Shown here piece by piece: positions 2,190 to 55,500 of a DNA stretch of 64,000 nt (the first letter of the stretch is position 1; each line of letters starts with the position of its first letter). A program made the position numbers and the translations under genes. The DNA is from a virus. The stretch is from positions 62,001 to 126,000 of IMG/VR virus record IMGVR_UViG_3300029319_000003; one strand, 5' to 3'. A model generated the notes under the pieces. It searched no databases. It had not been told where the DNA came from and worked only from the letters and a program-made list of their open reading frames with translations.

Positions 2190-2474
2190 TTATGGTTTGG
2201 GCAAACCGCTCGGCATACTTGGCTTACTTGGCTTCGATGGGGAGGACCGGTTTCCGCGACCCTTGTTCATTGCATCTTCTTCTGTCTTAAGTTGTTTTGT
2301 CAATCTCTCAACAAACCACCTTCTTAAACCGACTGGAAGACTGTATGCTTCTGTGAAACTCCACCCACCGTAATATTTCATATAGAAAAACTGTTCGTAA
2401 ACATTTTCTATGTACTTAGGACTTAGGCCAAAAAAAGTCCGTCGTAAACGGCACCTCCATCTCCACCTCCGCAT
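2190..2474 (-). CDS. frameshift extension of the gp26-like gene, or separate small tail assembly protein
   Basis: This open frame overlaps the end of the gp26-like gene and is offset by +1. Its conserved-looking part begins at residues that read SPKYIENVYEQFFYMKYYGG and continues through AYSLPVGLRRWFVERLTKQL, then a basic Ser/Pro/Lys tail. The only upstream start codon (ATG at 2474) would add an implausible Arg/Trp-rich leader. The next ATG, at MKYYGG, lacks a ribosome binding site and would cut the conserved segment. Entry by a +1 shift at the T7 run 2430-2436 therefore fits best and gives about 79 added residues. By place (after the tail tube) it resembles tail assembly chaperone extensions. 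An indel error in the T7 run is the main alternative. Confidence 0.6.
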   Translation of the reverse strand: MRRWRWRCRLRRTFFGLSPKYIENVYEQFFYMKYYGGWSFTEAYSLPVGLRRWFVERLTKQLKTEEDAMNKGRGNRSSPSKPSKPSMPSGLPKP

Positions 2475-3315
2475 CGCAGTGTACGCAAGCGAAGTTCTGC
2501 TTAAGATCTACGTTAGGCATGAGCGCTTGGTACAGCGTCCGCAGATAACGGGAGTCTGAAGCAGGAAGGTTATCGACGGCTTTGTTGATTGTGCTAGCAT
2601 CTGTGTGTCCCTCAACGGAGACAATCATTCGTCGCAACTGAATAGACAAAGTTGCTTCTGGCATCTTTGACTTCTTCCGCTGCTTAACTGAGTTTTGGAT
2701 TGCTTGCTCGTCTGCACCGGTCATGGCACGAACCTCAAGCGACCAACCAGACTTTGGAAGCGTAATGACATAATTATTTGTTGTGTCGTTAATGCTTACC
2801 CTCTCTAGAATGTCTGGATCCTCGCACACATCCAAATCCAAAGCCGCTTGGATTGGCGCGTCATTCAAGTCGAATGTATACTGCGACTTTTCACCACATG
2901 AAGGGCACTGGACCCCGGTTGTATAATCGGCACCGTAGGCATCGATTCTGGCAGCAACCAAAAGCGCGTTCTTATCGCCAACCAGCATGTCACCCGGTGT
3001 TACCCGACGGTCACAAATAATACTGGAAAGCATACGCTCAATCGCGATACCATTCTTAAGCAAAGAACGAGAAGTTAGAATATCTTCTTCCTTTGCTGTC
3101 ATATGGCGAATTTCCAAAGTGGTTTGTCCTGCGAGCGGATGCTCGGCAGGGTATAGCAAACCCCTTGATGGTAATTCCACATGTTCTGTTGGAGTTACAA
3201 ATGTAAGTCCACCACCACCATCTCCACCGCCACCGGGTGGCTTGCGAGCGGTAAGGGGTGGATCTGAATCGGGGCGTTGCGTACCGCCCATGCGATCCTG
3301 ATTTCTTCTACCCAT
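2416..3315 (-). CDS. T4 gp26-like baseplate hub / tail assembly protein
   Basis: This 299-residue protein resembles the T4_baseplate family (T4 gp26). A disordered Gly/Pro-rich N terminus (residues 1-38) precedes the family start LPSRGLLYPAEHPL and MTAKEEDILTSRSLL. Two Cys pairs, C137-P-S-C140 and C277-V-H-C280, look like a zinc site formed by distant halves, as in this family. In T4 gp26 helps assemble the baseplate hub. Here the gene directly follows the tube gene, where many tailed phages place their tail assembly chaperones, and it ends in an apparent +1 shift. The AGGTG site and ATG at 3315 are clear. No candidate-promoter motif is seen just ahead, so it is probably read through from the tube gene. 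Confidence 0.8.
   Translation of the reverse strand: MGRRNQDRMGGTQRPDSDPPLTARKPPGGGGDGGGGLTFVTPTEHVELPSRGLLYPAEHPLAGQTTLEIRHMTAKEEDILTSRSLLKNGIAIERMLSSIICDRRVTPGDMLVGDKNALLVAARIDAYGADYTTGVQCPSCGEKSQYTFDLNDAPIQAALDLDVCEDPDILERVSINDTTNNYVITLPKSGWSLEVRAMTGADEQAIQNSVKQRKKSKMPEATLSIQLRRMIVSVEGHTDASTINKAVDNLPASDSRYLRTLYQALMPNVDLKQNFACVHCDAEVEMEVPFTTDFFWPKS
2430..2436 (-). other. candidate +1 frameshift site (T7 run)
   Basis: The coding strand reads GAC TTT TTT TGG CCT AAG TCC TAA in the gp26-like frame. A Phe tRNA on the second TTT can slip forward one base and re-pair perfectly, giving GGC CTA AGT and entering the downstream frame. The TGG codon in the A site and the stop 12 bases on favour a pause. 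A second possible slip point is TCC TAA itself. Loss of one T by polymerase slippage would have the same result. Confidence 0.5.
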
Positions 3316-3393: not shown

Positions 3394-3951
3394 TTAGGAT
3401 GAACTGCCCGGTGTGAAGAATGCATTGGTTCCCTGCGTACCGGGTCGGTTAGTCTCAAGGTAAGCCCAATCATAACGGAGTTCGATTTCCACGTCGGTCA
3501 TCTCATCACCATCGTAATCAAGTTCACCATACTTAACATCCTTAATCCATGCGTTCCAAAGCGTCCATGTTTCCACGGCTTCACCGTTTCCATCAATCTG
3601 TTGGATTTGAATTTGTCCAAGAGCGGTCGTAGCCTTTGCCTTAGACATGGTGTCCAGTGCGTCTGCGCTAAGAGCGGGAGAGTAGCCGGAACTGCGGATA
3701 ATTTGAGTTACAGTTGCGGCGGCATCGGGATCAACTGGGTCTGCCAGAGTCAAAGAAATTGTATTCCACTCAACTCTACCGGGATACCAGTAGGTGTGGT
3801 TAATATATTTATGTGATGTTTCAGATACCGTGTATGAAGGCTTTGCCACCTTCTTAAGTGTCCATGAAGGAATATGATCGTTAACCAAGATCCAGCGGTA
3901 CTGTCTCTTTGGATCTTTCATGCCTTCAGCAGCGTCAGACCAGAATGCCAT
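3394..3951 (-). CDS. tail tube protein (T4 gp19-like)
   Basis: This 185-residue protein matches the contractile-tail inner tube family. The N terminus has PSWTLKKVAKPSYTVSETSHKY followed by WNTISLTLADPVDPDAA, and the C-terminal half has WTLWNAWIKDVKYGELDYDG, the pattern of gp19/Hcp-type beta barrels. It is slightly longer than T4 gp19 (163 residues), with a disordered C terminus. It should polymerise into hexameric rings inside the sheath and conduct DNA. It lies directly after the sheath gene, the usual order. A variant of the candidate late promoter (CTACTTA) lies 39 bases ahead of the ATG, consistent with its own high expression. Confidence 0.92.
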   Translation of the reverse strand: MAFWSDAAEGMKDPKRQYRWILVNDHIPSWTLKKVAKPSYTVSETSHKYINHTYWYPGRVEWNTISLTLADPVDPDAAATVTQIIRSSGYSPALSADALDTMSKAKATTALGQIQIQQIDGNGEAVETWTLWNAWIKDVKYGELDYDGDEMTDVEIELRYDWAYLETNRPGTQGTNAFFTPGSSS

Positions 3952-4029: not shown

Positions 4030-7000
4030 TTAATCGTCAAATGACGCTCCACTATCCGTAATCACGAAGTCAATCGCAATAAACTCAATTGCACGGGCAG
4101 GCTTCAGAAGAATCTTAGCGTACATAATGTTTCTATCAATCAACTCTGGTGTAGTAGTGGTTTCGTCAAGGATGACTCGGAACTCAGTAAGACCGAACCG
4201 AGACTGGACACTTGCCAAGAATGGCTTCACCCGAGAGGTGAATCGTGACCATGTAGTCTGGACGTTCTGGTCGAAGAGGACCGTTGCAGCCATACGAGAT
4301 ACCTGCTTCTTGATGAAAATCATCAAGCGACGTACATTGATGCGGTCGAGAGCAGACTGTGTGACCTGAAGGGTCTTCTGTCCGAACACTACAATGCCTT
4401 CTGCTGGGAACTGTGCGATGGGGTTAATATTTGCCTCATACAGCAGATCCCGTTCCTTAGAGTTCAAGCGGTGTCGCACGTTCAAGACGGGGATACCGGC
4501 AGCACCTTCTGTCAGACCACCACGGGTGAATCCAGCAGGGGCGAACCAAACTTCAGTCTTGCGCTGCGAACTTGACATAGTACCGAGAGCCACGATTGAA
4601 GGTGGAGCCCACAGAAGTGAGTTCTGATCTTGGTCGCGAATCTGGACCCAAGGGAAGTAAGCACAACCGTAACTTGAATTCAAGCCGCGATCTTGTAGGC
4701 TACTCACCGCCGAGGACACACTTGGCAAACGGTTGGCTTCGGAATCTGTGCCTTCTGTTGAAGGAACATAGTCATTCTGAAGGTCGATAATTGCAAGAGC
4801 ATCAGCGCGGTTCTCGCATGCATTAATCATGTGCTCCGTCAAGCCGGGGTTTGTGATACCGGGCATTGCCATCAAGTTGCACTCGACAACTTCAGGGTCT
4901 GCAACGGAATCCACAGCACGCTTGATTGAGTTGTAAGCATAGTGCGTAAGGCTGCTCTGACCGCTCAGTCCAGTATTGCGGAATGGCTCTTGCTCCATAA
5001 TGTCAAGTCCATCGCAACCACCCCAGACTGGCATTGTGAACCGGTCGAAGCCGGATGACAACACTTGGTTGTAAGTTCCACTCACAGCGGTTAATGAGTG
5101 TCCACCCGAGCGGTTTCCATTTGCCCATGAGGCATGTGTTGTGGAGCCGGCGACCAGTCGCACATCGTCAAGAGAGAAGAACTCTCCATACTCTGTTTGA
5201 TTTTCTGTAACTGTCCATGCGCCTGTTCCAACCTCATTGGTGGTTGACCAAGGACGCCCAAGGTCTTCGTAACTCACATCGTGGCGAGCAGAGCCTGTCT
5301 TGGAAGTCATAAGACCCCAATAAGCATCCTTTGGATTGGAAACATCGCCCTGACTGGAACTCACGCGCAACTGATACTTCGGGAAGTGAAGGTCGATATG
5401 TGCGCCGGGAATATTTCCAGCCCAAATGTCGCCCTGACGAGCCTTCCATGTGGCTGTGTCGGCAGAGGCGCTAATAAGCACGTCTGTCGCGGAACCTCTT
5501 GCCGTACCCGTAGCGATACCCCAGTAGTATGAGTATTCATCGCCATATGCGAACGGCTGGGTAACCTGACTGCTTGTGCCGACGGTGTGAATATCACCAG
5601 AGGCGGCAGCGACGGCAGCAGGGGTTGAAGTCAGTGAGGTTGGATCGCCAACTGTGGCGCTCTTCCAGCGAGCCTTTCCATAGTATCCGAAAGGAAGGAG
5701 AGATGGATCGGTAACACCGGTATCCACATCTTCGTTCATTTCCATACGGAAGAATCGAGACTGGTTGTTGAAGCGACCATAAGTCTTGAATCGACCCTCT
5801 GAGTAATCCCAAGTAGAGTACATATCGCCAACCTTGCGAGCAACATAGTTCTCGGAGTTGGGGTTGAGGTTACAACTTGAGAAACGCTCAACGATCCGTG
5901 GAGCATTGTCCTTGTCGTTGGCACGACGCACAACAATACTGAAGGAGCCGTAAGGTTCAAACTCATTTGTTGATGCCTTAATGTCTTCGATAGAAATCTT
6001 AAGGTTTTGCTGTTCCCACTCGCCACTGTAAAGTCCGTGGAACTTCATCAACTTAGTGACAGGATACTCACCGTCGGAATCAGGAACGAACAGCGAACCT
6101 GAGCCAAGGTGTTGCGAGACAACCCAACCACTCTGGGCTGGACGTGCGCTAACACGGTTGTCAGACTGATCTGCACCAGAGGATGCCATTTGCTTCAGTG
6201 GCACCAGAGCCGCCATTTGTGAACCGGCAGCAGTGGTAGCAGACAAACTATGTCCAAGATACTGATCAAAAGTCTCTCCGAGCCAGAATGTCTTTACTTG
6301 CGCCGAATTCGTAATTGTATCGTTGCACAGCGTTGGGTTCGTGTTGAGAACCTTTCGGGCATACTTCTTAGATGCCGGTGCCATGTTGAAAGAAATTGTA
6401 TCTTGCACAACATCGGACTTGTTACGAACACGCAACTTAAATTCATAATCTGAACCATCGGATTGAATCCACATTCCTGCTCCGTCGCGGGCAACACCAG
6501 CCAAGTCGTTTCCGACCAGTGTCAGAGCGCCCTCGTCAGCGTAAATAACTGCGGCAAGGTGGGCATCGCCCAAGTCTTGAGCAGAGCCAGATGCGGCAAC
6601 AGGACCAGTAGCAAGACCATCAGAGGAAAAGTCCACGACAGTCATGCTGTTAATATCTTCACTAATACTGCTCGCTACGCCAGCAGCGCCGGGAATGAAC
6701 TTGTTGGTAACCGTGACTACAGCGTCAGCAGCAGAGGCACCAAGCATGTAAGCCGAAGAGTCACTGGCGGCAGCAGAGCCACTTACGATTTGCTTTGCAA
6801 TGTGTGTTGCAAGCGCAGCGTTGGTGGCGGCAGAAGCGTCAGCCTCAAACCATACCCAAGTGTTGTCAGGGGTAGCAGCATTAACTGAGAAATCTTGATA
6901 TGAAGTGGAGATGGCAGCACCGCCGAAAGCAGGAGTGCCACGGGCTGTGAATCCCTTGAACTCCATCTTGAATGCCTTCGATCCTTTAATTTCTACCTTT

Positions 7001-7929
7001 CCGCTAGCGTCAAGTTGACCGGCTGTTGAACTGCTCTTCTGGTAAATAACAACATAACCCGAGGATGGGCTCATGGTGCCAATAGCGTCAGCCACATCGT
7101 GAGCAGCAGAGCCACCTGTTCCACCGGTGAGCGAGTTTCCAAGACCGTTTGTGGTGTGTACAAAAGTAGTACCGACGACAGCGCCAAAGTGACTAGCAGA
7201 TGCATTAATGTCGGTAACAATGTTAGCCGCGCTCCAAGCACCTGCTCGGAGGTTGATTGTGTCTTCACCGGCACTGCAAGAAAGAATCAAGTTTCCGTCG
7301 CCGCCGTATGTTCCACCGGCTTCATAGATTACACCCCAAGCGTTCATGGATGTTCCTTCGCGGAACTTGATAGTATCGGAAGAGCCGTCTGCCTTGTATG
7401 AAATTTCAGAGTCAACAGCACCATTTGCTGTGCCGTGATCTAACAGTCGGGCGTATGTGCCGCCCATCGTCAAAGATGCAGTTGCGTTTGTAACGCCGGC
7501 AAAATCAGCGACAAACAGACCATATGCAGCAGCGTTTGCATTTACATTGGTTCCAAGCGTACCAGAAACCTTCCAACCAGCACGGGTTGCAGAGGCACTA
7601 TAATCATCATGATCAGCGCCAAGCAGCCTCACATATGTAAGCGGTCCAGAGTTGCGGAGGTATGCTTGTGCAGCATATGCACCGTATGTTGGACCGAGGC
7701 GGTTGCCTTCTCGCCAAACATCGCCACCCTTTCCACCGGGAACGGGCATTCCGAATGTCTCAACGAATTCAGAAAATGAATCGACCTTCGTAGGGACTAA
7801 ACCGGGTCCGCGCTCTGCGCGACCGATAACCACCGGACCCATTTCTGCTGGGGCTTTCGGTAGTTGTGAGTTATCAATCTCATTCAGGAAAATTCCCGGT
7901 GATACAAACTTAAACTTTTTAACTGACAT
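4030..7929 (-). CDS. tail sheath protein, about twice the T4 length (T4 gp18-like)
   Basis: The 1299-residue product has recognisable sheath ends. The N terminus reads FVSPGIFLNEIDNSQLP and GPVVIGRAERGPGLVP, then WREGNRLGPTYGAYAAQAYL and a Pro-Leu-Thr-Tyr-Val-Arg strand near residue 95. The conserved C-terminal domain (about 1150-1299) has QVTQSALDRINVRRLMIFIK and ends AIEFIAIDFVITDSGASFDD. T4 gp18 has 659 residues. The extra length lies mainly between about 105 and 560 and about 740-960, and is rich in Ala, Gly, Ser and Thr with beta-type repeats, so it probably forms domains on the outside of the sheath. The sheath contracts to drive the tube through the host envelope. AAGGAG precedes the ATG. 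Confidence 0.93.
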   Translation of the reverse strand: MSVKKFKFVSPGIFLNEIDNSQLPKAPAEMGPVVIGRAERGPGLVPTKVDSFSEFVETFGMPVPGGKGGDVWREGNRLGPTYGAYAAQAYLRNSGPLTYVRLLGADHDDYSASATRAGWKVSGTLGTNVNANAAAYGLFVADFAGVTNATASLTMGGTYARLLDHGTANGAVDSEISYKADGSSDTIKFREGTSMNAWGVIYEAGGTYGGDGNLILSCSAGEDTINLRAGAWSAANIVTDINASASHFGAVVGTTFVHTTNGLGNSLTGGTGGSAAHDVADAIGTMSPSSGYVVIYQKSSSTAGQLDASGKVEIKGSKAFKMEFKGFTARGTPAFGGAAISTSYQDFSVNAATPDNTWVWFEADASAATNAALATHIAKQIVSGSAAASDSSAYMLGASAADAVVTVTNKFIPGAAGVASSISEDINSMTVVDFSSDGLATGPVAASGSAQDLGDAHLAAVIYADEGALTLVGNDLAGVARDGAGMWIQSDGSDYEFKLRVRNKSDVVQDTISFNMAPASKKYARKVLNTNPTLCNDTITNSAQVKTFWLGETFDQYLGHSLSATTAAGSQMAALVPLKQMASSGADQSDNRVSARPAQSGWVVSQHLGSGSLFVPDSDGEYPVTKLMKFHGLYSGEWEQQNLKISIEDIKASTNEFEPYGSFSIVVRRANDKDNAPRIVERFSSCNLNPNSENYVARKVGDMYSTWDYSEGRFKTYGRFNNQSRFFRMEMNEDVDTGVTDPSLLPFGYYGKARWKSATVGDPTSLTSTPAAVAAASGDIHTVGTSSQVTQPFAYGDEYSYYWGIATGTARGSATDVLISASADTATWKARQGDIWAGNIPGAHIDLHFPKYQLRVSSSQGDVSNPKDAYWGLMTSKTGSARHDVSYEDLGRPWSTTNEVGTGAWTVTENQTEYGEFFSLDDVRLVAGSTTHASWANGNRSGGHSLTAVSGTYNQVLSSGFDRFTMPVWGGCDGLDIMEQEPFRNTGLSGQSSLTHYAYNSIKRAVDSVADPEVVECNLMAMPGITNPGLTEHMINACENRADALAIIDLQNDYVPSTEGTDSEANRLPSVSSAVSSLQDRGLNSSYGCAYFPWVQIRDQDQNSLLWAPPSIVALGTMSSSQRKTEVWFAPAGFTRGGLTEGAAGIPVLNVRHRLNSKERDLLYEANINPIAQFPAEGIVVFGQKTLQVTQSALDRINVRRLMIFIKKQVSRMAATVLFDQNVQTTWSRFTSRVKPFLASVQSRFGLTEFRVILDETTTTPELIDRNIMYAKILLKPARAIEFIAIDFVITDSGASFDD

Positions 7930-42428: not shown

Positions 42429-43531
42429 TAGCACTCATCTCCAAAGGGTCCGTCGTCTTCGCTGACAGGACTGGTGTAAGTTGAGCCACCATCCGCTGCA
42501 TTCGCGGGACCACAGCCGGGTGGACAATTAATTTCCTCGTTTGCGAACAGACTGTCACGGCGATTTTCTGGGACGTTCTCACAGAAGACCATCGGATCTA
42601 TTTCTTTGTCAACAAAGATATTGAAAAAATATTCAACATAACTGGAGTCGATAGCGGGAAACAACTCCATTGTCCCACCTTCTGGTTCATCAAGCAAGAT
42701 ATTATTTTTTATCATAGTTGGGCGCTGGATGAAGGAGAGCGGTGTCAATTTTTCTTTTGTATGCTGCTTTTCACCACTCAATCCCGGCGTGTGAATTGTG
42801 CCGGATACATCAACATCCTCTACGATAAAAACCTCAATATCATAATTCTTTTTAAGCGACACAGAGTTTATCTCATCAATCTCCAAAAGAAGATAATCAT
42901 TATCAATGTGGATATACGAACCATCTGGATATAATTCATTCGCCAAATTCAAGTCGTTTGCCGAGCCAGCATCAGATGGATTGCCCGGTTTAATTGCCTC
43001 GTCCTCACCTTCAGTATCGGGCGCGGCTTCTTGTTTTACAAGTGTTTTGAATAAAACGTCACTGGGTGTAAGCCGAGGAATTTTTAATGTTGGGTGAGCA
43101 CCAACAACATATTGTAAGGAGCCGGATAACTTGCCCTTTAAAAAGGTAACATTCCAAGCAGGCATTTTATCGGCATGCAAGTCTGTTGATCCGAGAGGAG
43201 CCGCAAGGGCATAGTGTTTTTCATGAGTTGACTGAAACTTCTCGCTTTTAAAACTTAATTTTCCTGACCGCACTTGTTCGTTCAATTCTTTAATTTCTGT
43301 CCCTCGACCGGAATAGATATACTGAGTTTTGAGGGATGGTGTGTCGTCCTCAATGCGGTCTTTAGTTTCGTTCTGCGGCTCGGTGCCGCCGCCGTATTCG
43401 TGATCATACAATATGTTGTCATCAAAAAACGCATAATATACTGGTTCAAACTCACCTTGCGACAAAAGCAATTTGCCGTATTGTGTCAGTTGAACATCAA
43501 GCACGTCTTCTTTTTTATTGAAAAACTCCAT
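42428..43531 (-). CDS. virion structural protein, baseplate adaptor candidate
   Basis: This 367-residue protein begins MEFFNKKEDVLDVQLTQYGK and continues LLLSQGEFEPVYYAFFDDNI, a start shared in type with the 309-aa protein at 35129. It has an acidic middle, NNILLDEPEGGTMELFPAID, and a C terminus with three cysteines (NCPPGCGPANAADG and the final DEC). It overlaps the giant gene by a TAATG junction, with GGAG ten bases ahead, so the two are translationally linked. It probably joins the giant protein to the baseplate, but this is inferred from linkage only. Confidence 0.65.
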   Translation of the reverse strand: MEFFNKKEDVLDVQLTQYGKLLLSQGEFEPVYYAFFDDNILYDHEYGGGTEPQNETKDRIEDDTPSLKTQYIYSGRGTEIKELNEQVRSGKLSFKSEKFQSTHEKHYALAAPLGSTDLHADKMPAWNVTFLKGKLSGSLQYVVGAHPTLKIPRLTPSDVLFKTLVKQEAAPDTEGEDEAIKPGNPSDAGSANDLNLANELYPDGSYIHIDNDYLLLEIDEINSVSLKKNYDIEVFIVEDVDVSGTIHTPGLSGEKQHTKEKLTPLSFIQRPTMIKNNILLDEPEGGTMELFPAIDSSYVEYFFNIFVDKEIDPMVFCENVPENRRDSLFANEEINCPPGCGPANAADGGSTYTSPVSEDDGPFGDEC

Positions 43532-46500
43532 TAACTGTCATCTCCAAATATTTTGCCGGGTCTGCTTGTAGAAACGGTCGCAGTAGGTGCGGAGGTTCTT
43601 GCAACCACAGAGGTGGATGTTTGAGCAGCGACCAGTGCAGATTCTGGATCGTCAATCCGACGTAATGTCGGATCAACAGACACATCTTCTGCTGGAGGCA
43701 TAAACTCAATCACTCCTTCAACATTAACCTTTTCGACCAGTGAGCAGAAATCATATGGCCAGTTGTAACTATACTCTGGGGCTTTTTTACCGACGGCAAA
43801 GTCAAACTTGAATCGATGGTCATCTGCTGAATCTGCGGTGATAGAGTAGTAATTTTGTTCTGCACGCTTCTTGACCTTAAATGTTAACCACCTGACGTTT
43901 GGAGGTAGATTCTTTCCTTCATAGAATTCAATCTTATTCATTTCATGAGAAATGACTGCCTCATCGCGTTCAGCGCGGGTGCCAATTTTTGGAGTAAGCC
44001 CTTGCCAAATATCTGATAAGTCTTTGTTGTCGAAAGTGTGATTGAACTCAAAGACGTACATAACGAATGGGAACTCTCCAGACTTCAACGGGAACCGAAC
44101 AAAATCATATTGTGGGGGAATGTTGTAAACCTTCATTCGCTTAATCATGTCAGAAACCGATGTGTCCCAAACATCCTCTTCCGAGCCATACTCACCTTGC
44201 GGGATCGCGGGCTTACCGGCTTCGACGTTTGTCTTGGTGAGGTTGAACAGTTTTTTCGATATTTTAAAGAAGTTTCGCCCTGCAACCGTCACGGTCTTTG
44301 CGCCATAGTTGCTCGGCTCGTCCACAAAGGGGATCATAACAATCGCTTCAGATATATCTTTTTCATCAGCAACTTCACCAATACGGGAGAATCCCGGTGT
44401 AAAACCACAAACATCAATCAAAGAACCAACTGGACGGGAGCCAACTTGAACAGTTGATAGGTATGCTATAGAGTCGCTTGGTAGTTCCTGAGTAAACCAT
44501 GTTGAGGAGGCAAAATATTGACCGAGGGGTGCATAATCATATGCTCGATAAACTTCTTCGCGTGGTCCGTAAATAACCACTGCATTTAAGTTACCGGCAT
44601 CATATACGGGACCATCAATGTCCAAAGAAGATAGTGTTGCATCAAAATCATCGTACCCAGAGATCGTGGTAAACATCTGGGCGGCGACTTGCTCAGTCGT
44701 CTGGGTCGAAATTGTTCTAATCCTGATTCCGGTCATACCAGTTGGGTTTGGATCATTACTGTTTGAGGTGCCGTCATCAAACCAAACATAGTAAGGATTG
44801 TTTGATTTTCCGTAAATAACAAAATATCCCTGATCAACCCCTGCGCCTCCAAGGTATGCGTTGTTGGAATAATAAGAACCAGACTCGGGGATAACCAGCG
44901 TGACTTGACGCCGACCGTCTTGCAGCGACTGTCGGTCTTTGAGTTCATAACTTTCTGCCAAAGACATAAACACCCCGTCCTTGCTTGTTGGTTTCTCTCC
45001 ATATCCCGTCCACATACCAATTCCAGCGCCAGCCTTGCCAGAAGTATTAATTTCATTCTCGGACCCAAACGCCGGGATCGCATTCCGCACACTTCCTGTT
45101 GCTTTTGTAACAAAGTTTGTATTATCTTCGTTATTAAAGTCGAGAATAGGACATTCGAATCTCGGCTGAATAACCCATGTATCAAAAGTACTTGAATTAG
45201 AATCCTGTGCGGTCTGTGGCAAGAACTCCGTCTGAGTTACATCTGACAAGTTCTCTCGGTTGGGAGTTTGAACCACATCGTATGTTACTTCGCGAAGTCG
45301 GGTTTTTCCAAGCATGTTAATAGACGATGACATTGGCATCCGAGCCTGCCAAGCAGGGGATTTTTTATAATAATTAAATACATTACCATTCGTCCCGCCT
45401 GCTGAAAGAATGTCTCCAATCGCATACATCAAACCTTCACCATTCTCGCCGTACTTTGATCGGATGAATGGCATGGCTCGCGGGACGCCTTGCTGGACAT
45501 ACAGTTTGGCTTCGGAAACAATATCTCCCACGCCGTCGGAATTAACATTAACAGAGCGGAAGAGTTCTGCCGCTTCGGGGTTTAAGTCTTCAATTTCAAC
45601 TCCTGCCAGAATCTCATCCAAAGTATATTTCTTTGTCTCTGTTGCTACGAATGAAAGTCGTGCTGTTGCTCGTCCGTAAAAATACGGAGGCGTGTATGGT
45701 GCCTGTGCAGGATCTTGAATTTTAGCCAAGTCATTGTCGCCTTCATAGAGCGCAGAAGAGGTGACCAGCATTCCAGCAGCGTGATCGTCTTGAACAGAGT
45801 CTTCACCACCACCTGTTAGTACTTCATACATACGGTGCATGTCGGGATCATCGTAAAACTCACTAGGATCAATTGTAATAACCTCGCCATTTGTTTTATA
45901 TCTAAACGGAGGACCAAAATAACGACCCTTTGTTGAGCGCGGCACACTTACCGCCAGTTCTTCATCCTGTCTAAGTTCTTCACGACCAGCAGTTCGACCC
46001 GACTCTTCACTGCCATAAGGACTGACCATCATATCAAAATTTTCTGATTTGTGCAAATTAACATCCATGTAATACACAGTACCCGAAACCATGCTTTTAA
46101 ATCTATTTTCTGGCTGTGAGGCGAATGTGACCATGCCCTTGTTTTTGAGGAAGAATTTTGGAGTCTCTGCAAGGAAGTTGTGCATAGCCAACTCGTAAAG
46201 ATTGTCTTTCTCTCCATTCCATTCAAAGTATGGATATACCCAAGGAGTTCCGCTGGCTAACTTCATATCTGTATTTGTGTTCCATAAATAACTTGGAAGG
46301 TGCGGGTAGCCCAACTCATCACCTCGATAATATGTTGGTGCTGTCATATAAATACGAGCAGAGGACCATTGGGTTGAAGAATCTTTTCGCGGCAAAAGAC
46401 TAAGATCAACAAGCGCTTCAAATGGAAGCCGCATGTCCGGTGTGCGATCAATAAGGTAGCCACAACTTTGTGAAAGCCAAATCTTTCCGTCCTGAGAATC

Positions 46501-49500
46501 GTCACTGAACGGGGGGTTGGGATCTGTACGCCGGATAGCCATCGGTTGGGCTTGACGTGTGTCATTTTTGGCAGCGGTGTTCAATCTTACAAGTTTGAAC
46601 CCTTGCATTTTTTTCCTACCCTGATACATGAACACTTCGTCGTACACGTCTTTTAGTGAATTGTCTGTCTGGCGCTCTAGGAATTGCCTATTCTCATCAT
46701 TGTTGGAGGTGTCTTCAACAACATTTCTCTGCACCTCGCCATAGAAGTTCGGCTTTGTGTACTCATCCATCAGTGCTTCCATTGGATTTAAAGCAAGATT
46801 ATCCGTACCAGTGAAAAGTGGCCAGTCTACTGCAATTCCAGCCTTAACAGTGTTGTATAAAATACCGGGTGCCATGAAGGGCTGCAAACAGGCTTGTCGA
46901 ATCTGGTCTGTCTCAAGTCCGTCGGCGGCTGTAATATTATCAAACATTGCATCAGCAAATAGTTTCCCAATTTGCACGGACCTTTGATTTGGGTAGAATC
47001 CGTTATATGGCAGCAACTTCTTAACTGCATTCACCTTGAGAGTAAATCTAGGCGACGATGCTCCATTAAGATTTTGATGATCCTGTGCGATCTTGTCCAT
47101 ATGAACAATTGTATCGGTGTGTGCATATGTATCGAAGAATTTATCATTGAACTCCAAAGAGGAGCCAACTTGCTTGGATGTGGGAGGTACGCCCATGCGG
47201 TACCACGCCACCAAGTTTGGTGTGTGCCCGTAGCGATCCCAATCATCAGCCTCATCTTCCGCGTTCATGATAAGTTCGTTTGCATTCCATGAAGTACATG
47301 TGCCAGACGAACTCACTGTTGATTCATAAGAGGAGTTCCGCTTGTATACCTCAGTCTTATTGACGACGTGGGGGTTTGTTATTACAAACGGATGACAGGT
47401 TGTGCCCTTGATTGCCGCCCTCACGCCTGATGTTTCTCCGTATTCATTCGCGGCAAGTTCGGCATCATAAAACAGTGCATTAACATTCACGGGCTTGCCG
47501 TGGTTATAGACTCTGGTAACATCAGTGGAACTCAACATACCCCGCGCAATTACAAACTCATCCATCTGACCGTAGAATGGTGCTCCTGCGCCCGGTTTTT
47601 TCGTAAGATAACTGGTGCCAATTTTAACATCACTGATGTAAGTCCATTCTGGGGATGTGGTGGTATTAGCCTTTGCAAAAGAAGAATTTCTCAACGGAGT
47701 TGCGGCGTCAGGGAAGGCTGAAATATTAGCATATCCAGAGGCTTTGGATTCATAAAAAGATACTGGTACATCATCTTCGGTGCCAGTGTTTACATGGGGC
47801 TCGTCGTCAGTCTTGTTGTTGACAGCGGGTAGATAAGTCGAATCGGAATCGTAAGCGTGAGGCTGGGCGAGTCCGTCAACATCGTTCCAAGTTGCAACTC
47901 CAAGTTTTGTATGATCAAGACCATTGTTATCTGATAAGCCAGCCGCGTTGCTACCGCCCTTAAAACTATAATATGCCGTACCTACATTGTGTGTACCCAC
48001 ATTGTCCCACAGACCCAAGTTTGCTCGCTGAAGCATTCCGTATACAGGGCTTCCATTAACCCACACGCGAATGCAGGAATTGCCAGCGTTTTCAAGAGCG
48101 AGGTCGCCATCAGTACCGGCATACTTCAAATTGCTTCCCGCGCCGCCCTTGTCGATTGCCACTGGGGGGATGTATTGAACTGCAATATGTGTCCAAATTC
48201 CCGGTTCGATGACTGTCGGATTGTTCAACTCTGGGTCGTTCCAAAACCTCACAATGTTTTTCTGATCTTCACCGGGCTGATTTGAATCACCTGTTAGCGT
48301 ACCAAGAGATTCAAAGAAACTATCAACCTGCCCTTGTGGGTTAATATCATGAGTAGCGCCATCCGCTGCTGTTAAATGATAATTTCCAACATCTGCATTA
48401 TTACAACGAGTATCAAACCAGTGAAGTTGTTTCCTTGTTTGTACTTCGGTCCCTCCAACAAATTCTGGCACTTTACCAGTGCCGCCGGCACAGTGCTCCG
48501 AACTTCGGCGCAACCACATACCTTGCCAATAGTTCGCGATAGTGGCGTTGACTGGATCATACGAGTCGCCTTCAATCTTGTCTTGATGCCGGTTTCCTTC
48601 CTGTTCATACAGGCTGCTCGCCCCGCCAAACGATTCCTCATCCGACATAGGGCTGATAACACTTGTCGCGTTGGGCATTTCGTCATCGCTATAAGAACCA
48701 GAGAAGCCGGCATAACCATATGATCCAACATACCTGTTTTGCATGTCTTCATCATCGACATTTTCTGGAAGTTTCACCCAGAATGATGTAAAGAACGGAG
48801 TTCCTTGTCTAGCAGTTTTTCCAAGGGCAGTGGTCGTAGCGTCCGTTGGACCGGGACCACCGGCTGCTTTGGTGAGTTGCCCCCACGGTGCATCAACAAA
48901 GCCCTTCGTAACCATTGAATAAGTGTCCGACGAGGTATTCACGCCAGTGCCGCCCAGTGTATATTCAGTAAAATAATTACCGCCTGTTGTCGAGAGATCA
49001 ACAGTGCTATCAAGATGTGCCCAAAGCCTGTCGTTTGTGTCATGAATTTCTGCAACAAAATCAGCAGCCGCAGTTGTTCCAAGCGCCGATGCTGAAGCAT
49101 ATGTTGATGTATGCATTTCGCCGCTATCGTCTACGTTGAACGCCAGCGCGGCATTAGGGCTGGAGTCAACACTCGTCTGCAAACTGGATGTAACAGTATT
49201 TAAAAATTCATCATTCAAATATGAATTTCTTGCAAGAGTAATAATTCCATGATTAGTTTTTGCTGCAACAAAGCCGCCATTCACAATGGCTTTATTCGGC
49301 TCGCCAGTGTAAGATGTTTCAAAAGTTGTGCCCTCGTCGTGGCTATATGTCGTAGTAAGTTTTGCTTCTGACTTTCCACTGCCAGTGATGCCGCCACCCG
49401 GCAATTCCAAGAAGTCTTTATTATCAACTCTAAAGTCGCCACCATTTATCGTAACGTAATGTGACATATGTGAGGAAATATTAAACTCAGGAACTACTGT

Positions 49501-52500
49501 ATATTTCTTGGTAGCGGAACGAATGTCTGCGTCATAATCCTCATAATCATTATACCAAGGATAGCGACCAATTGCGCCAGAAACTTTCGGAGTGTGCCAC
49601 GGCAAACCTGCTTCTTCCGCAACGTCTGACTGGCACTGGTGAATGTATTGCAGTTGTGCGCGGGGGGCAGGCTTGGTCCATACCACTTGCGTTGATCCGT
49701 TCATCAATCTTGATTTGGCAGTGGAGAAGGACGAGACGGCTTCAATAAACGACGAAGTGGGGCGCACCATTCTCATCATTCTCTCAAGACCCATGTAAGC
49801 AAGATCGCCCTTGTATTCTTTGCGGTAAACTAGTGGAAACGTCTGTTGGTCATCGGTGGTTTCTGTATTATTAATTTCAGACAACACTTGGGCTGCATAT
49901 GTGATTCCGTTATCAAAGTCGTCCATACACCAAATAGAATCAAACTGGTAGCGGTAATGGTTACTTCTTTGAATTTTGGAAGCGTTATCATTAACATGCT
50001 GGGCATTTTCAAAGCAGCCATTATAACTGCTTGCCATGTCTGCAACAACGTCTTCCCAACTCTCATAACTTGCACGATTGGAACCCATCCCAGCCCAGCC
50101 AGCCTTTATTGCCATCCAGTTCCACTGAAGGTTGTATCTTGCTGTCGCCTGCTTGCCATAAACAGCATTAACACTGCCCGTGCTGCGGATGCGGATGCCG
50201 TCTTTAAGTTGCTCGCCAAAATGGTTTCCTGTTACAGATGTACTGACTTCATTGCTGCATGAAATATCCCGCCAGAATGAACGAATAATTCCAGAGTTTC
50301 TATCGTACCCGTTTGACCCGGTGCCGGCAACCTCTGCATATTCTGTTCTACTGCGAACCTTATTTAAAGTGACGTGCCTGTGTTTTGGATAAATATATTC
50401 TGAGTATTTGAGTGATACAAAGTCGATTTGTGAATCTACAGAATCACCAGCATACAAAGAGTACAATTGATCGTACATTTGATCTGTAGAGCACTTAACC
50501 TTTCCGATTCGGTTTGTCAAGTGTGGATTTGCATAACACTCAAGATTATTACTGTAAGGGTGCTTTAATCTCGATCCAAGATCGCTGCCGTCCATATTAA
50601 GTCGATGGGTCATCGGCAAGTTCCATGCAACGCTCGGCTCAATGTAGTTTACAAACGTATCAGATCTTGAATCTCTAAATACAACTTCTCGTCCTGCGGA
50701 AGAAGTAAAGTTTCTAATTACTGGTCGATCCATGACCGAAATTGTGTTGGACTTTCTGTGAGCCCGCCAAACTGGGTTTTGACCAGACCTAACCTGCTTC
50801 CAAGAACCCCAACCCCAAGGACCATGACGGTGATTGATGAGCGCATTGGTAGATGCAGCCATGCCCAAGGCATATCCATCGTGTGCCACCATTGCACGCT
50901 CGCCATCGACAGATGGAAGCCCGGTAACAAACTGCTGATTAATATAATTCCAATTTCCATAAACGTCTGTTGTTGATGGAGTGCTGGTAGTTTTCCAATC
51001 AAACTTCGAAGACGTATATCCAACAGTATTGCTTGCAGTGTTGATTGGTTCGTAAATGATTGTATTTAAGTTAACAAAATCAACTGGAATGTATGGGTTC
51101 ACCACAGTGTCTTTGTCAGCACCGTGGGATTTGCCATATCCTTGTTTAGCAAAAAAGTAGCCGTGAGGGATAGGGATACTTGCGAAATCGCCAGCGCCGC
51201 TTGTGACCACACCAATGTCACTTGCAGTTGGGAATTGCAATTGATGATTGTACTCGGGAGAACCATAGTTGTGGGTTCTGCTCATGCCAATCGATAAGTT
51301 ATCAAACCTTGTAACATAGCCCCTTCGAAGGTGTGCTTGAGAGCCGTCGAATTTGCGGGCGGTACCAGAACCTGCAACACTGTATTTTGTCGTTTTTATA
51401 GTAGAGTGTGTGTCCGTAAAGGTCACTTCATCCAGTTCGGTGTCGGAAATTTTCCCTGTCCCGTGGTTAGCAGCCCAAATAGGTTTAATTAAAATTGAAG
51501 CAGAGACACCTGAAGGATCTACATCAAACAACGAAGCGGTGTAAAAATGCCCTGCTCTTGAGCCAGTATCTTTGTTGTTAATTGCTGCCACAAGGCTTGT
51601 TGCTCCTTCGACACCGTTGGCTCCCTTGCTCCAAATCCCACCCCCCTCTACCATTGCGGGAATCGTATCATGAGGCGTCTCCAAGGTTAGTGACTTGCCA
51701 TTCATGTTAGAGGTATAAGTGCCACCTGTTTTACCCCCCGAGTTTACAACAATAACAACAGTTGCTGCGCCGGTAACAAGATCTTCTTTATAAGAATTGT
51801 GAACCCACGAATATTGATAATCAGATCGTGGAATTTGATGCTGGACATACCAGTTGTCATATTGTGTGCTACCGCTGGGCTTATAAAGTGTTTGATTGAA
51901 ATTGCTCAAATAACCGTGCGCGTCCACTGTATGGGCAGCATTTCTATTAACCTTGTGCCAGTTACCCGCTCCAGAGGTTTCAGCGAGCATTCCACCGGGA
52001 TAACCGCCGGCAAACCACTCTTCGCGTCCTCCTCCGATAAGGGTGTGTTCTGCCTGCCACATCTTAAGGTGATTGCGAACATCCAAGTTGCGATAATTTA
52101 AATTGTTATATGGCGACAACTCTCCAGACTCAAGATCTGTTGACCCCAACCCTAGAGTATCAGGAGCGCCGGGAGCGCTGAACCGAGAAGTAATAACATG
52201 TTCACTGCGACCTCGCACTGGCAAAGTATAATCAAATACGCCGCTAACCGCTGGAGATACGGTGACTGGTACCAACTTCTCATGGAGCGAACCACTCTTG
52301 ACAAGCCAGCGGTTTTGCTCGCCTCGACCAAAGGTTTGCAGAATCTCATAATCTCTTGCATAGTTTCCAAGATTAACTGATCCTGTGGTCGATTTAATAT
52401 TTCTTAAGTTGACTGGGCGTTTCGCCGTCTCATCACGAAGGCGATTCGCAGCCGGGTAGAACACACCGTATGCCACGGCTGCATCCATGAACGCTTGAGG

Positions 52501-55500
52501 GTGAGCAATACTAGAGCCGAGCCCTGTGAAGCGCCACAGTTCGGGGCGGTCGGTTGCCCTTTGACCAATGGTAAATGGCTCGATAGCGCCTGCGGCAAGC
52601 CCTGATGCGGCGTGCATTGTATTCTTCACGCAGTTGGTCATAAACCCTGCGGCAGTGACCACATCTCGATTCCCCGCAGCGCCTGCTACGTTTTGTGTCA
52701 GCGTGACAACTCCACCGGCACTGGTTGCGACAATTTTGCCAGCATGACCGTTTGAACTGTTGACCAGTGTTATGAAATTAGTAGCAGTTGTTGTTGCACT
52801 GCCCGCCGCATCAAATTCTTGATCCGAAGCAGTGGCATCACCAGCCCCAGTATTTATTACTTTGTAAGTAACTGAAGTTCCATCTGTCGAAATCAGAGTT
52901 ATTGTTCCGTTGTTTGCCGAAGCATAATTTGTTGGATGGAATTCAAATGAAGTCGATGCTTTCGCCTCTGTTGACAACTTAACATCCACATGTCGGTGTT
53001 GGTTTCCTCCAACATGAGCATGGGTAAACGGACCCTGCATTGCAGTTTCTTTCTGAGGTCCATATGAATCGTCGTGAATGTTGGCTTTGTATTCAGTGCC
53101 TGTATTAACATCTTCATATATCGACCAAGGAGACTGGAATGAACTCTTGAACTGCCCACCGGCTCCGGTGTGTCCGGCAACTGCGTTGTCAACGACAGTC
53201 ATCGCGTCATCTTTAGGCTTCTTGTCGAGCGGGAATCGCGAAGCGAGATTATCAGTGCTCAGAGCCTCTGCATTCAACTCGTCGTAAAAATCCAACGACC
53301 CTGTTTGGATACCAGCCGGCAAACCACGAATAAAGTCATTAGAGTTTCTTTTATTTACAGGGAAGTTGGTGCCACCATGAATTGTTTGGGGTGCCTGCAC
53401 GGCGAACCTGTAAGGTCTACCAAGTCGTTGAATCGCATAAGTCGATCCTTGGTAAACAGTGTTTGTGCGACCTTTATAAAGTCGGGGATTTTTATTACCC
53501 CAATATCCATCAATATCTTTTATTTTAACTGACTGAACCGTAGTTCTGACGGCATCACTGCCCAGCCCACCAGCGAAAGCAGCAGAGATTGTTGCTGCGG
53601 ATAGGTTGTGCGTGATCGCAGTATTGCCATGAGCACCACCAGAGTCTTGCGTTAAAAGAACATCGCCAGTGCCGCCGGGATCTGATGCTGTAATCGAAAC
53701 ATCCTTTTGGGCATTAATAACTGCAATCCATCGGTCTGCGAAAGCCTCCAAACTTGCCAACCCACTCTGCCCAACAATGATATATCCAAGCCCATTCTTC
53801 GTACCATCAGCAGTGGTAACGCCACCGGTTACTTGAAATGTTGTTGATTTTCCAGATCCATCAGTTAATACAAGAGTCTCCCCGTCGTTACAGTAACTTG
53901 CAAAAGAAATTGTTGCAGTAGCCTGAGTTTCTGCACTTAATTGCCGCATGTCACGGGCGGCTTGTTCTGCCCACCACAAACTATTCTGGCTTTCTTCTCC
54001 ATCGCCAGCACCATTGCCGAAGCCATAAGGAATACTGAAACCGCTTAAATTATTGACAATTGCCGTGTTTCCGTTAACCCCCATTAGGTCTTGTGTCAAC
54101 GTGATAGAAGTGCTGGTTCCCGATGCAGTGATTGCGGCATCCGTCTGTGCGTTAATTACTGCTCTAATTCTGGTGGCGAAGTCCGAAAAACTGCTAACAC
54201 CTGATTGTCCAATAATCACATTACCACTGGCGTTCTTTGTCCCATCGGCTGTTGTCACGCCACCCGTAATTTCAAATGTGACTGAATCTCCGTCTGTATC
54301 AATCAGTGTGATTGTCTCTCCATTGTTAGCATATGAGCCGACAACCAGAACAGCAGTCGCAGCGGCGGTTGGCAATGTCGCATGACCATGCTTCCAGTCA
54401 TATCCCAACTCATGCACGCCACGGGCTGTTGCCTGCGGAGGTTCTTGTTTCATTTCAAGCGTCGGATATTTTGTCCAATACTTGTTACGTTCAAGAACGT
54501 GAGGTTCGACCATCGTCCGCATGCCTTCGGAGAAGTTAGCAGAAGCAGGAATCAATTCCTGAATCATGTAGCCCAGTGAAGCATCGAGCCACTTGTAGAA
54601 CTCAACATAACGATCTACTTTGGGAGTGTTGCCAATTGTATCAAAGAATGATTGGCGTAGTTTGCCAAGCATCTTATAGTCCATTCGATACCGATTGACT
54701 GGATCTCCGATTAAGTTGTTGAAGTCTTTGATTGTTGCGAACACATTTAAAATCTCTTCAGAGATCGTCGCATACATACTCTTTTCAACAGCAAAGAAAT
54801 GATTAATTGGTTCCGATTCTTTTGTATAATTTAAATCATCAGACTGTCCAGTTAAAATCTTAACTGTGTCTGCGGACTGTAAGTTTTCTGGCAACTGTTG
54901 ATATGCCGACAAGACATAATTTGTATCAACAACTTGCTTGGAGTCAGGATACCATTTGTCACCAACGCCGGGGTAGTCCACATCGACAACTGTGCTGATC
55001 CATCCATAGTCAGAGTAGTCTGACGACCCACTCGTAAGATCGTACACATAGAACGTAGAATCAGATAGAATGCCCGAGCCGTCATCTGGGCTGGAGCCTG
55101 TAACATTTGAGAAGTCCCAATGGAGAGCAAGCGTGTCCTTCTGAGGGACGTGAATTCCTTTACCACTTGGTGACAGACTGCTTTGAGCAAAATAAGCAGG
55201 CTTCATTGGGTTCATTCGACCAGCATTGCTGGCATCGCGGGCGTGCGCCTTAATTGTATCGTTGTCAATATAATCCAGCCAATATCTGACGCCTGACATT
55301 TTTACATCGCAACTATCAATTATTTTGACATTACTGTCCTTGTAAAGCGCTCCCATGTAAACACGCTTGTTTGCGTGAAGGAATGCTTGCGCCGGAGTTT
55401 GAGTAACGGGGGCTGAGATGGTGAACTCATTCTCCACCACGTCGAGCAACATGTTAACACCATATAGTTCAATGATGTACCCTGTTGTGCCCAACGTAGA

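Follow-up and report, generated by a model that had tools for sequence, protein, structure and literature searches.

Frameshifting that yields the G and G-T forms of the tail assembly chaperone has been described as widely conserved in long-tailed phages "except T4" (review PMC5009743). Here we asked whether a gp26-like gene of the T4 type, carried by a virus, is read together with the frame that overlaps its end as such a pair. The window is a stretch of 64,000 nucleotides, corresponding to bases 62001 to 126000 of a 184,187-base virus record. On its minus strand the gene order is sheath, tube, G, and T, the last in the +1 frame, with the following features.

4030-7929, minus strand: sheath protein gene (PF17482, E = 2.8e-9)
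3394-3951, minus strand: gp19-type tail tube gene, directly upstream of G (phrog_4542, E = 1.3e-25)
2416-3315, minus strand: G, gp26-like, 299 aa, the zero-frame product (PF12322 T4_baseplate, E = 9.1e-13; phrog_150, E = 1.8e-15)
2454-2458, minus strand: GGAGG, Shine-Dalgarno-like, candidate stimulator, 17 to 21 nt before the T run
2439-2451, minus strand: small hairpin CCGTT/GACGG, candidate stimulator, just 5' of the shift site
2428-2436, minus strand: proposed shift site TTT TTT TGG, identical in 48 of 51 relatives and the peak of synonymous constraint
2190-2429, minus strand: T, +1-frame ORF (GLSPKYIENVYEQFF...) of 79 aa and a stop codon, which would supply the C-terminal part of a G-T fusion

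A gp26-like gene followed by an open +1 frame

The initial annotation had described a gp26-like gene that ends at a run of seven T's and a +1 frame that stays open for about 79 residues from the same run, and it had placed this pair directly after the tube gene. The sequence confirms the first description, and the phrog_4542 match at 3394-3951 confirms the second. On the minus strand, the 3' end of G reads GAC TTT TTT TGG CCT AAG TCC TAA, with the T7 run at 2430-2436 and the stop codon at 2416-2418. Omitting one T gives GAC TTT TTT (T) GGC CTA AGT CCT AAG TAC and then the open T frame, which starts with GGC (2427-2429), remains open for 79 codons, and stops at 2190-2192. The PF12322 profile match of G reaches 48.8 bits, above the curated cut-off of 24.5. 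The -1 frame of the window extends only 2 codons beyond the G stop. A classic -1 X_XXY_YYZ frameshift was considered for the window pair and rejected, because T lies in the +1 frame and a -1 slip at the T run meets TAA after TTG GCC.

The +1 junction is conserved among viral relatives

A search with G found more than 500 viral relatives, of which 80 were compared and 51 were left after near-copies had been removed. The junction site was present in all 80. Wherever a locus extended far enough past it, T stayed open in +1 for 55 codons or more; in these environmental relatives the -1 frame typically closes shortly after the junction. The site was TTT TTT TGG in 48 of the 51 nonredundant relatives, TTC TTT TGG in 2, and TTT TTT TAC in 1. 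The initial annotation had proposed to compare homologues for a frame change between the two parts at the same point; among these relatives T lay in +1 in 51/51. The second Phe codon of the site was likewise TTT in all 51 relatives, while Phe elsewhere in G is encoded by 72% TTT and 28% TTC. T evolves under purifying selection: pN/pS was 0.23 when computed in the T frame, against 1.07 and 2.23 for the two alternative frames. Under a Markov null, a 75-codon open frame has a probability of about 2% in one genome, so the weight of the evidence rests on conservation and not on length. Very different phages share the proposed skip, which marks it as a genuine signal rather than an error of sequencing.

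We propose, with a probability of about 0.9, that positions 2190-3315 of the window encode a tail assembly chaperone pair read by programmed +1 ribosomal frameshifting; we infer the ribosomal shift itself, its frequency, and the chaperone role. Homology and gene order make the chaperone role of the pair likely. The majority of ribosomes would stop at 2416 and release G (299 aa). A minority would have peptidyl-tRNA-Phe paired to UUU while a slowly decoded UGG occupies the A site; these ribosomes would slip one base forward, from UUU to UUU, skipping the last T (2430), and would read on into T, yielding a G-T fusion about 374 residues long (...DFFGLSPKYIENVYEQFF...). If the pair works like lambda gpG/gpGT, the tape measure protein would be coated by G, tube subunits would be brought in by the T part of G-T, and both G and G-T would be absent from the mature virion.

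Alternatives to a +1 ribosomal shift

T might instead be a separate small protein, made by translational coupling or by reinitiation at an ATG after the G stop, or from an upstream in-frame start. An ATG in the T frame 7 to 10 nt after the G stop, found in about 40 of the 51 relatives, could allow reinitiation, and true separate T starts occur in the distant relatives S-SCSM1 and Cygsa01 (TAATG overlap). However, the window carries ATA where relatives have this ATG, other relatives carry Ile or Ala codons, and no Shine-Dalgarno sequence precedes the post-stop ATG. L076 and the Flavobacteria-type loci L147, L160, L183, L197, and L219 contain no ATG, GTG, or TTG in the T frame up to at least 30 nt past the G stop. 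The starts in the window are as poor as the initial annotation had held: an ATG at 2474, with an Arg/Trp leader, and the ATG in FFYMKYY both lack a Shine-Dalgarno sequence. That annotation had named a start codon and ribosome binding site belonging to the second part in homologues as evidence against a frameshift, and T was found without a conserved form of either. Nor would a separate start account for a +1 frame kept so strictly, a TTT TTT TGG that hardly varies, or a synonymous constraint confined to the site and the sequence just before it, and we regard a separately started T as improbable in the window.

More improbable still is a -2 shift of the kind used by phage Mu, or slippage of the polymerase during transcription of the T7 run, either of which would make the same protein but for one Phe. 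A -2 shift on TTT TTT does land in the T frame, and a T7 run could slip during transcription, yet TTC TTT TGG, TTT CTA TGG, and CTG TTT CNN keep the arrangement without a run for -2 re-pairing or polymerase slippage. The first two of these permit UUU to UUY re-pairing at +1 and offer no clean -2 re-pairing. The initial annotation had itself raised a homopolymer indel in the assembly, under which G and T would really be one continuous frame. T7 homopolymers are error-prone, but the run and the frame break recur in isolated phages and in metagenomes assembled independently of one another, dozens in all; homologues sharing both features rule out this explanation, to which we give a probability close to nil.

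Synonymous constraint points to candidate upstream stimulators

For the favored programmed +1 shift, we looked at the flanks of the site. Synonymous constraint was strong from codon -8 to codon +4 and flat upstream of codon -8, and the conserved codons in this stretch were GAG (48/51), CCG (41/51), and GAC (38/38 of Asp codons). The Glu codon is GAG at this position versus 33% elsewhere in G (p about 4e-20, a value to be read with the relatives not being independent), and it is this codon that produces the GGAGG. Many relatives have a +1-frame stop within the constrained stretch or just upstream of it, so double coding cannot explain the constraint in those relatives. Compared with synonymous recodings, the 24-nt segment preceding the site is more stably folded by 3.8 kcal/mol, the sole such peak in the 60 codons tested. 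Covariation of the five-pair hairpin was borderline, with one pair showing a UA/CG/UG exchange and 11 to 25 of 500 shuffles scoring as high by the main measures, and RNAalifold returned no consensus structure in the 45-nt junction alignment. We consider GGAGG and the small hairpin candidate stimulators of the +1 shift. In RF2, 3 nt separate the Shine-Dalgarno-like element from the shift site; the GGAGG of the window pair is farther away.

Isolated phages and the proposed +1 site

A tblastn search against annotated phages gave 28 records, whose junctions were read base by base. A T in the +1 frame came after G in Flavobacterium phage immuto (TTT CTT TGG), Microcystis phage Mel-JY01 (TTT TTT TGG), Bacillus phage SP-15 (TTT TTT CAC), LIS04 (TTT TTT AGT), Streptococcus GXN1 (TTC TTT CGT), Streptomyces phage BRock (CTG TTT CGC), LuckySocke (CTG TTT CAG), and an uncultured jumbo phage (TTT CTA). 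All of these except the uncultured jumbo phage were seen to have G after the tube gene. Public annotation of the isolated phages omits T or gives it as a short or mis-started ORF. The layout was shared by 40 nonredundant Flavobacteria-type loci, whose +1 sites were TTT CTT TGG, TTT CTA TGG, TTT TTT TGG, and, in one case, TTT CTT TAC.

Every +1 site has UUU followed by U or C, which suggests that, after moving forward by one base, tRNA-Phe can pair again with UUU or UUC. Judged from these sequences, the essential element would be UUU then U or C (UUU-Y) and not the T7 run, because relatives with TTC TTT TGG, TTT CTA TGG, and CTG TTT CNN stay in +1. The comparative data support the earlier reading of the locus as a +1 G/GT pair, with two refinements: UUU-Y takes the place of the T7 run, and the arrangement is not universally +1. 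Some homologous loci place T in -1, others give it a start codon of its own, and T4 itself has two separate genes.

Relatives with -1 junctions and separate starts

Cyanophage-type G ends in NNT TTT TTC/A/G with a stop close behind, and its T occupies the -1 frame. All nonredundant cyanophage-type loci (38/38; L230, L238-L317) have the heptamer U UUU UUN; its third-position T before Phe codons has a frequency of 62% elsewhere and occurs in all 38 of these loci. Cyanophage gp26 and a short gp51 are linked by this invariant -1 heptamer. The gp51 of cyanophages and marine vibriophages is known to lack the first ~200 residues of T4 gp51 (Sullivan et al. 2010, PMC3037559; Fig. S3), and the gp51 start codons in public cyanophage annotation are probably wrong.

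T is also in -1 in PA5oct, in a relative (L137), and in Atu_ph07. The same frame was found in bacterial chromosome clusters (L107-L119) from Acidobacteriota, Thermodesulfobacteriota, Chloroflexota, Planctomycetota, and Armatimonadota, at U UUU UUG/A and without a nearby start codon (for example, L111, 4016-4842). Their order is sheath-like, tube-like, G, and a large ORF (L111 is again an example), and we call them contractile-injection-like; their T is DUF6760-like.

Separate starts were seen in a few loci. T has its own ATG in S-SCSM1 (L231), where it lies in the +1 frame, and its own start in a TAATG overlap in Cygsa01 (L233). In the LR756511 jumbo phage (L090), G extends past its usual end and the T ATG overlaps the stop (TAATG), an apparent separate-start version.

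On the G tree, +1 rows need 2 changes and -1 rows 4, far below shuffled labels, on a quick tree whose deep branches are uncertain. A tentative reading, to which we give slightly less than even odds, is that a single chaperone family has switched at one Phe-Phe among +1 (UUU-Y), -1 (U UUU UUN), separate starts, and gene duplication, with the +1 branch using its own upstream stimulator (GGAGG plus hairpin). If true, this switching family would be a natural comparison set for forward versus backward ribosome slipping.

Identity and predicted structure of G and T

G and T were folded separately, as two chains. The AlphaFold2 model of G had a pLDDT of 88.7, and the model of T was helical, its core predicted with confidence. 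Among G's PDB fold matches, second place by E-value went to 2ob9, the HK97 tail assembly chaperone (probability 0.63, TM 0.52 by target, E = 0.64), which also had the highest probability among the matches listed; none of these was significant, and the predicted likeness of the G fold to this chaperone is suggestive only. A PDB sequence search with the G and T profiles found no true relative.

The predicted fold of T matched Gp51 of Prochlorococcus phage P-HM1 with a probability of 0.96 (Foldseek E = 0.51). By profile comparison, T matched both the cyanophage form (E = 2.1e-6) and the form from bacterial clusters (E = 1.3e-11), and the cyanophage T profile in turn matched the C terminus of T4 gp51 (E = 6.9e-12); column-shuffled controls scored far below the real T comparisons. 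A direct profile comparison of T with T4 gp51 was not significant (E = 0.35). T is homologous to cyanophage gp51 and, transitively through it, to the C terminus of T4 gp51. The DUF6760 (PF20546) profile scored 18.2 bits on T, below the curated cut-off of 27, and gave weak matches in 18 of 28 T homologues (best E = 4.9e-5).

Genes downstream of T

Three genes separate T from a large downstream ORF, the tape measure candidate of the window phage, which had no family match in PHROGs or Pfam. These minus-strand genes (124-354, 358-1389, and 1480-2103) stand between T and ORFs of 118 aa and ~1055 aa. Two of them probably encode lipoproteins, one containing an AhpC-TSA/thioredoxin domain (PF00578, E = 2.5e-10) and the other a DTSGS (vWA-like) motif. 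In relatives, the 118-aa and ~1055-aa ORFs adjoin T directly; the three genes are an apparent insertion into the tail operon. A tape measure gene is annotated after T in several isolated phages. Elsewhere in the window, 43531-58026 (minus strand) is a single ORF of 4831 codons, unusually large for a phage gene.

Relation to T4 gp26/gp51 and to published frameshift systems

T4 gp26 and gp51 are listed as hub assembly chaperones (PMC3004832). Both belong to PF12322, and their groups are sisters on the G tree (support 91). T4 gp51 has an extra C-terminal part, whereas T4 gp26 stops at the equivalent Phe-Phe; taken with the sister groups, this suggests that in T4 a separate gene encodes each of G and GT. 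Tail assembly chaperone genes of T4-like phages have already been identified (Vladimirov, Gautam, and Davidson 2022, Virology 566:9-15), and, going by the accessible part of that paper, we claim no novelty for T4 gp26/gp51 as G/GT by duplication. The G of the window is PF12322 like T4 gp26 and gp51, and its T corresponds to the C-terminal part of gp51; the difference is that the two forms apparently come from two genes in T4 and, in the window, from one gene by a +1 shift.

The window pair resembles lambda gpG/gpGT (reviewed in PMC5009743) in having overlapping ORFs after the tube gene, a conserved slippery site near the end of the first ORF, a second ORF without a start, and proposed G/GT products. 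It differs in being +1 rather than -1, in using UUU-Y rather than a -1 heptamer, and in having a G of PF12322. It shares with cyanophage gp26/gp51 homologous G and T and a T that overlaps the end of gp26, but the cyanophage frame is -1, at U UUU UUN in 38/38 loci. Listeria phage PSA likewise uses +1 shifts in structural or tail genes (PMC5009743); its sites are CCC_UGA or CCC and lie in the genes for capsid and tail shaft, in contrast to UUU-Y in a gp26-type chaperone. A +1 chaperone has also been predicted in HSTV-2 (PMC5009743).

Significance

The G/GT idea is old. As far as the literature was searched, what is new is the +1 form with its UUU-Y site, the upstream element conserved beside it, and the occurrence of a -1 form in clusters on bacterial chromosomes; in the openly accessible literature we found no description of a +1 gp26-type version, of UUU-Y with an upstream element, or of the bacterial -1 version. 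T4 was long listed as the exception to the classic G/GT frameshift, and the T4-type gp26 genes examined here carry such a pair. The +1 pair occurs in many environmental, Bacteroidetes, Streptomyces, and Bacillus-type phages, with -1 at the same spot in relatives. The comparison corrects the annotation of very common phage genes, now given as "baseplate hub" plus a missing or mis-started hypothetical protein. It also leads us to expect that the contractile-injection-like clusters of bacteria encode a chaperone made by frameshifting. The matched natural +1 and -1 sites allow forward slipping to be tested against backward slipping.
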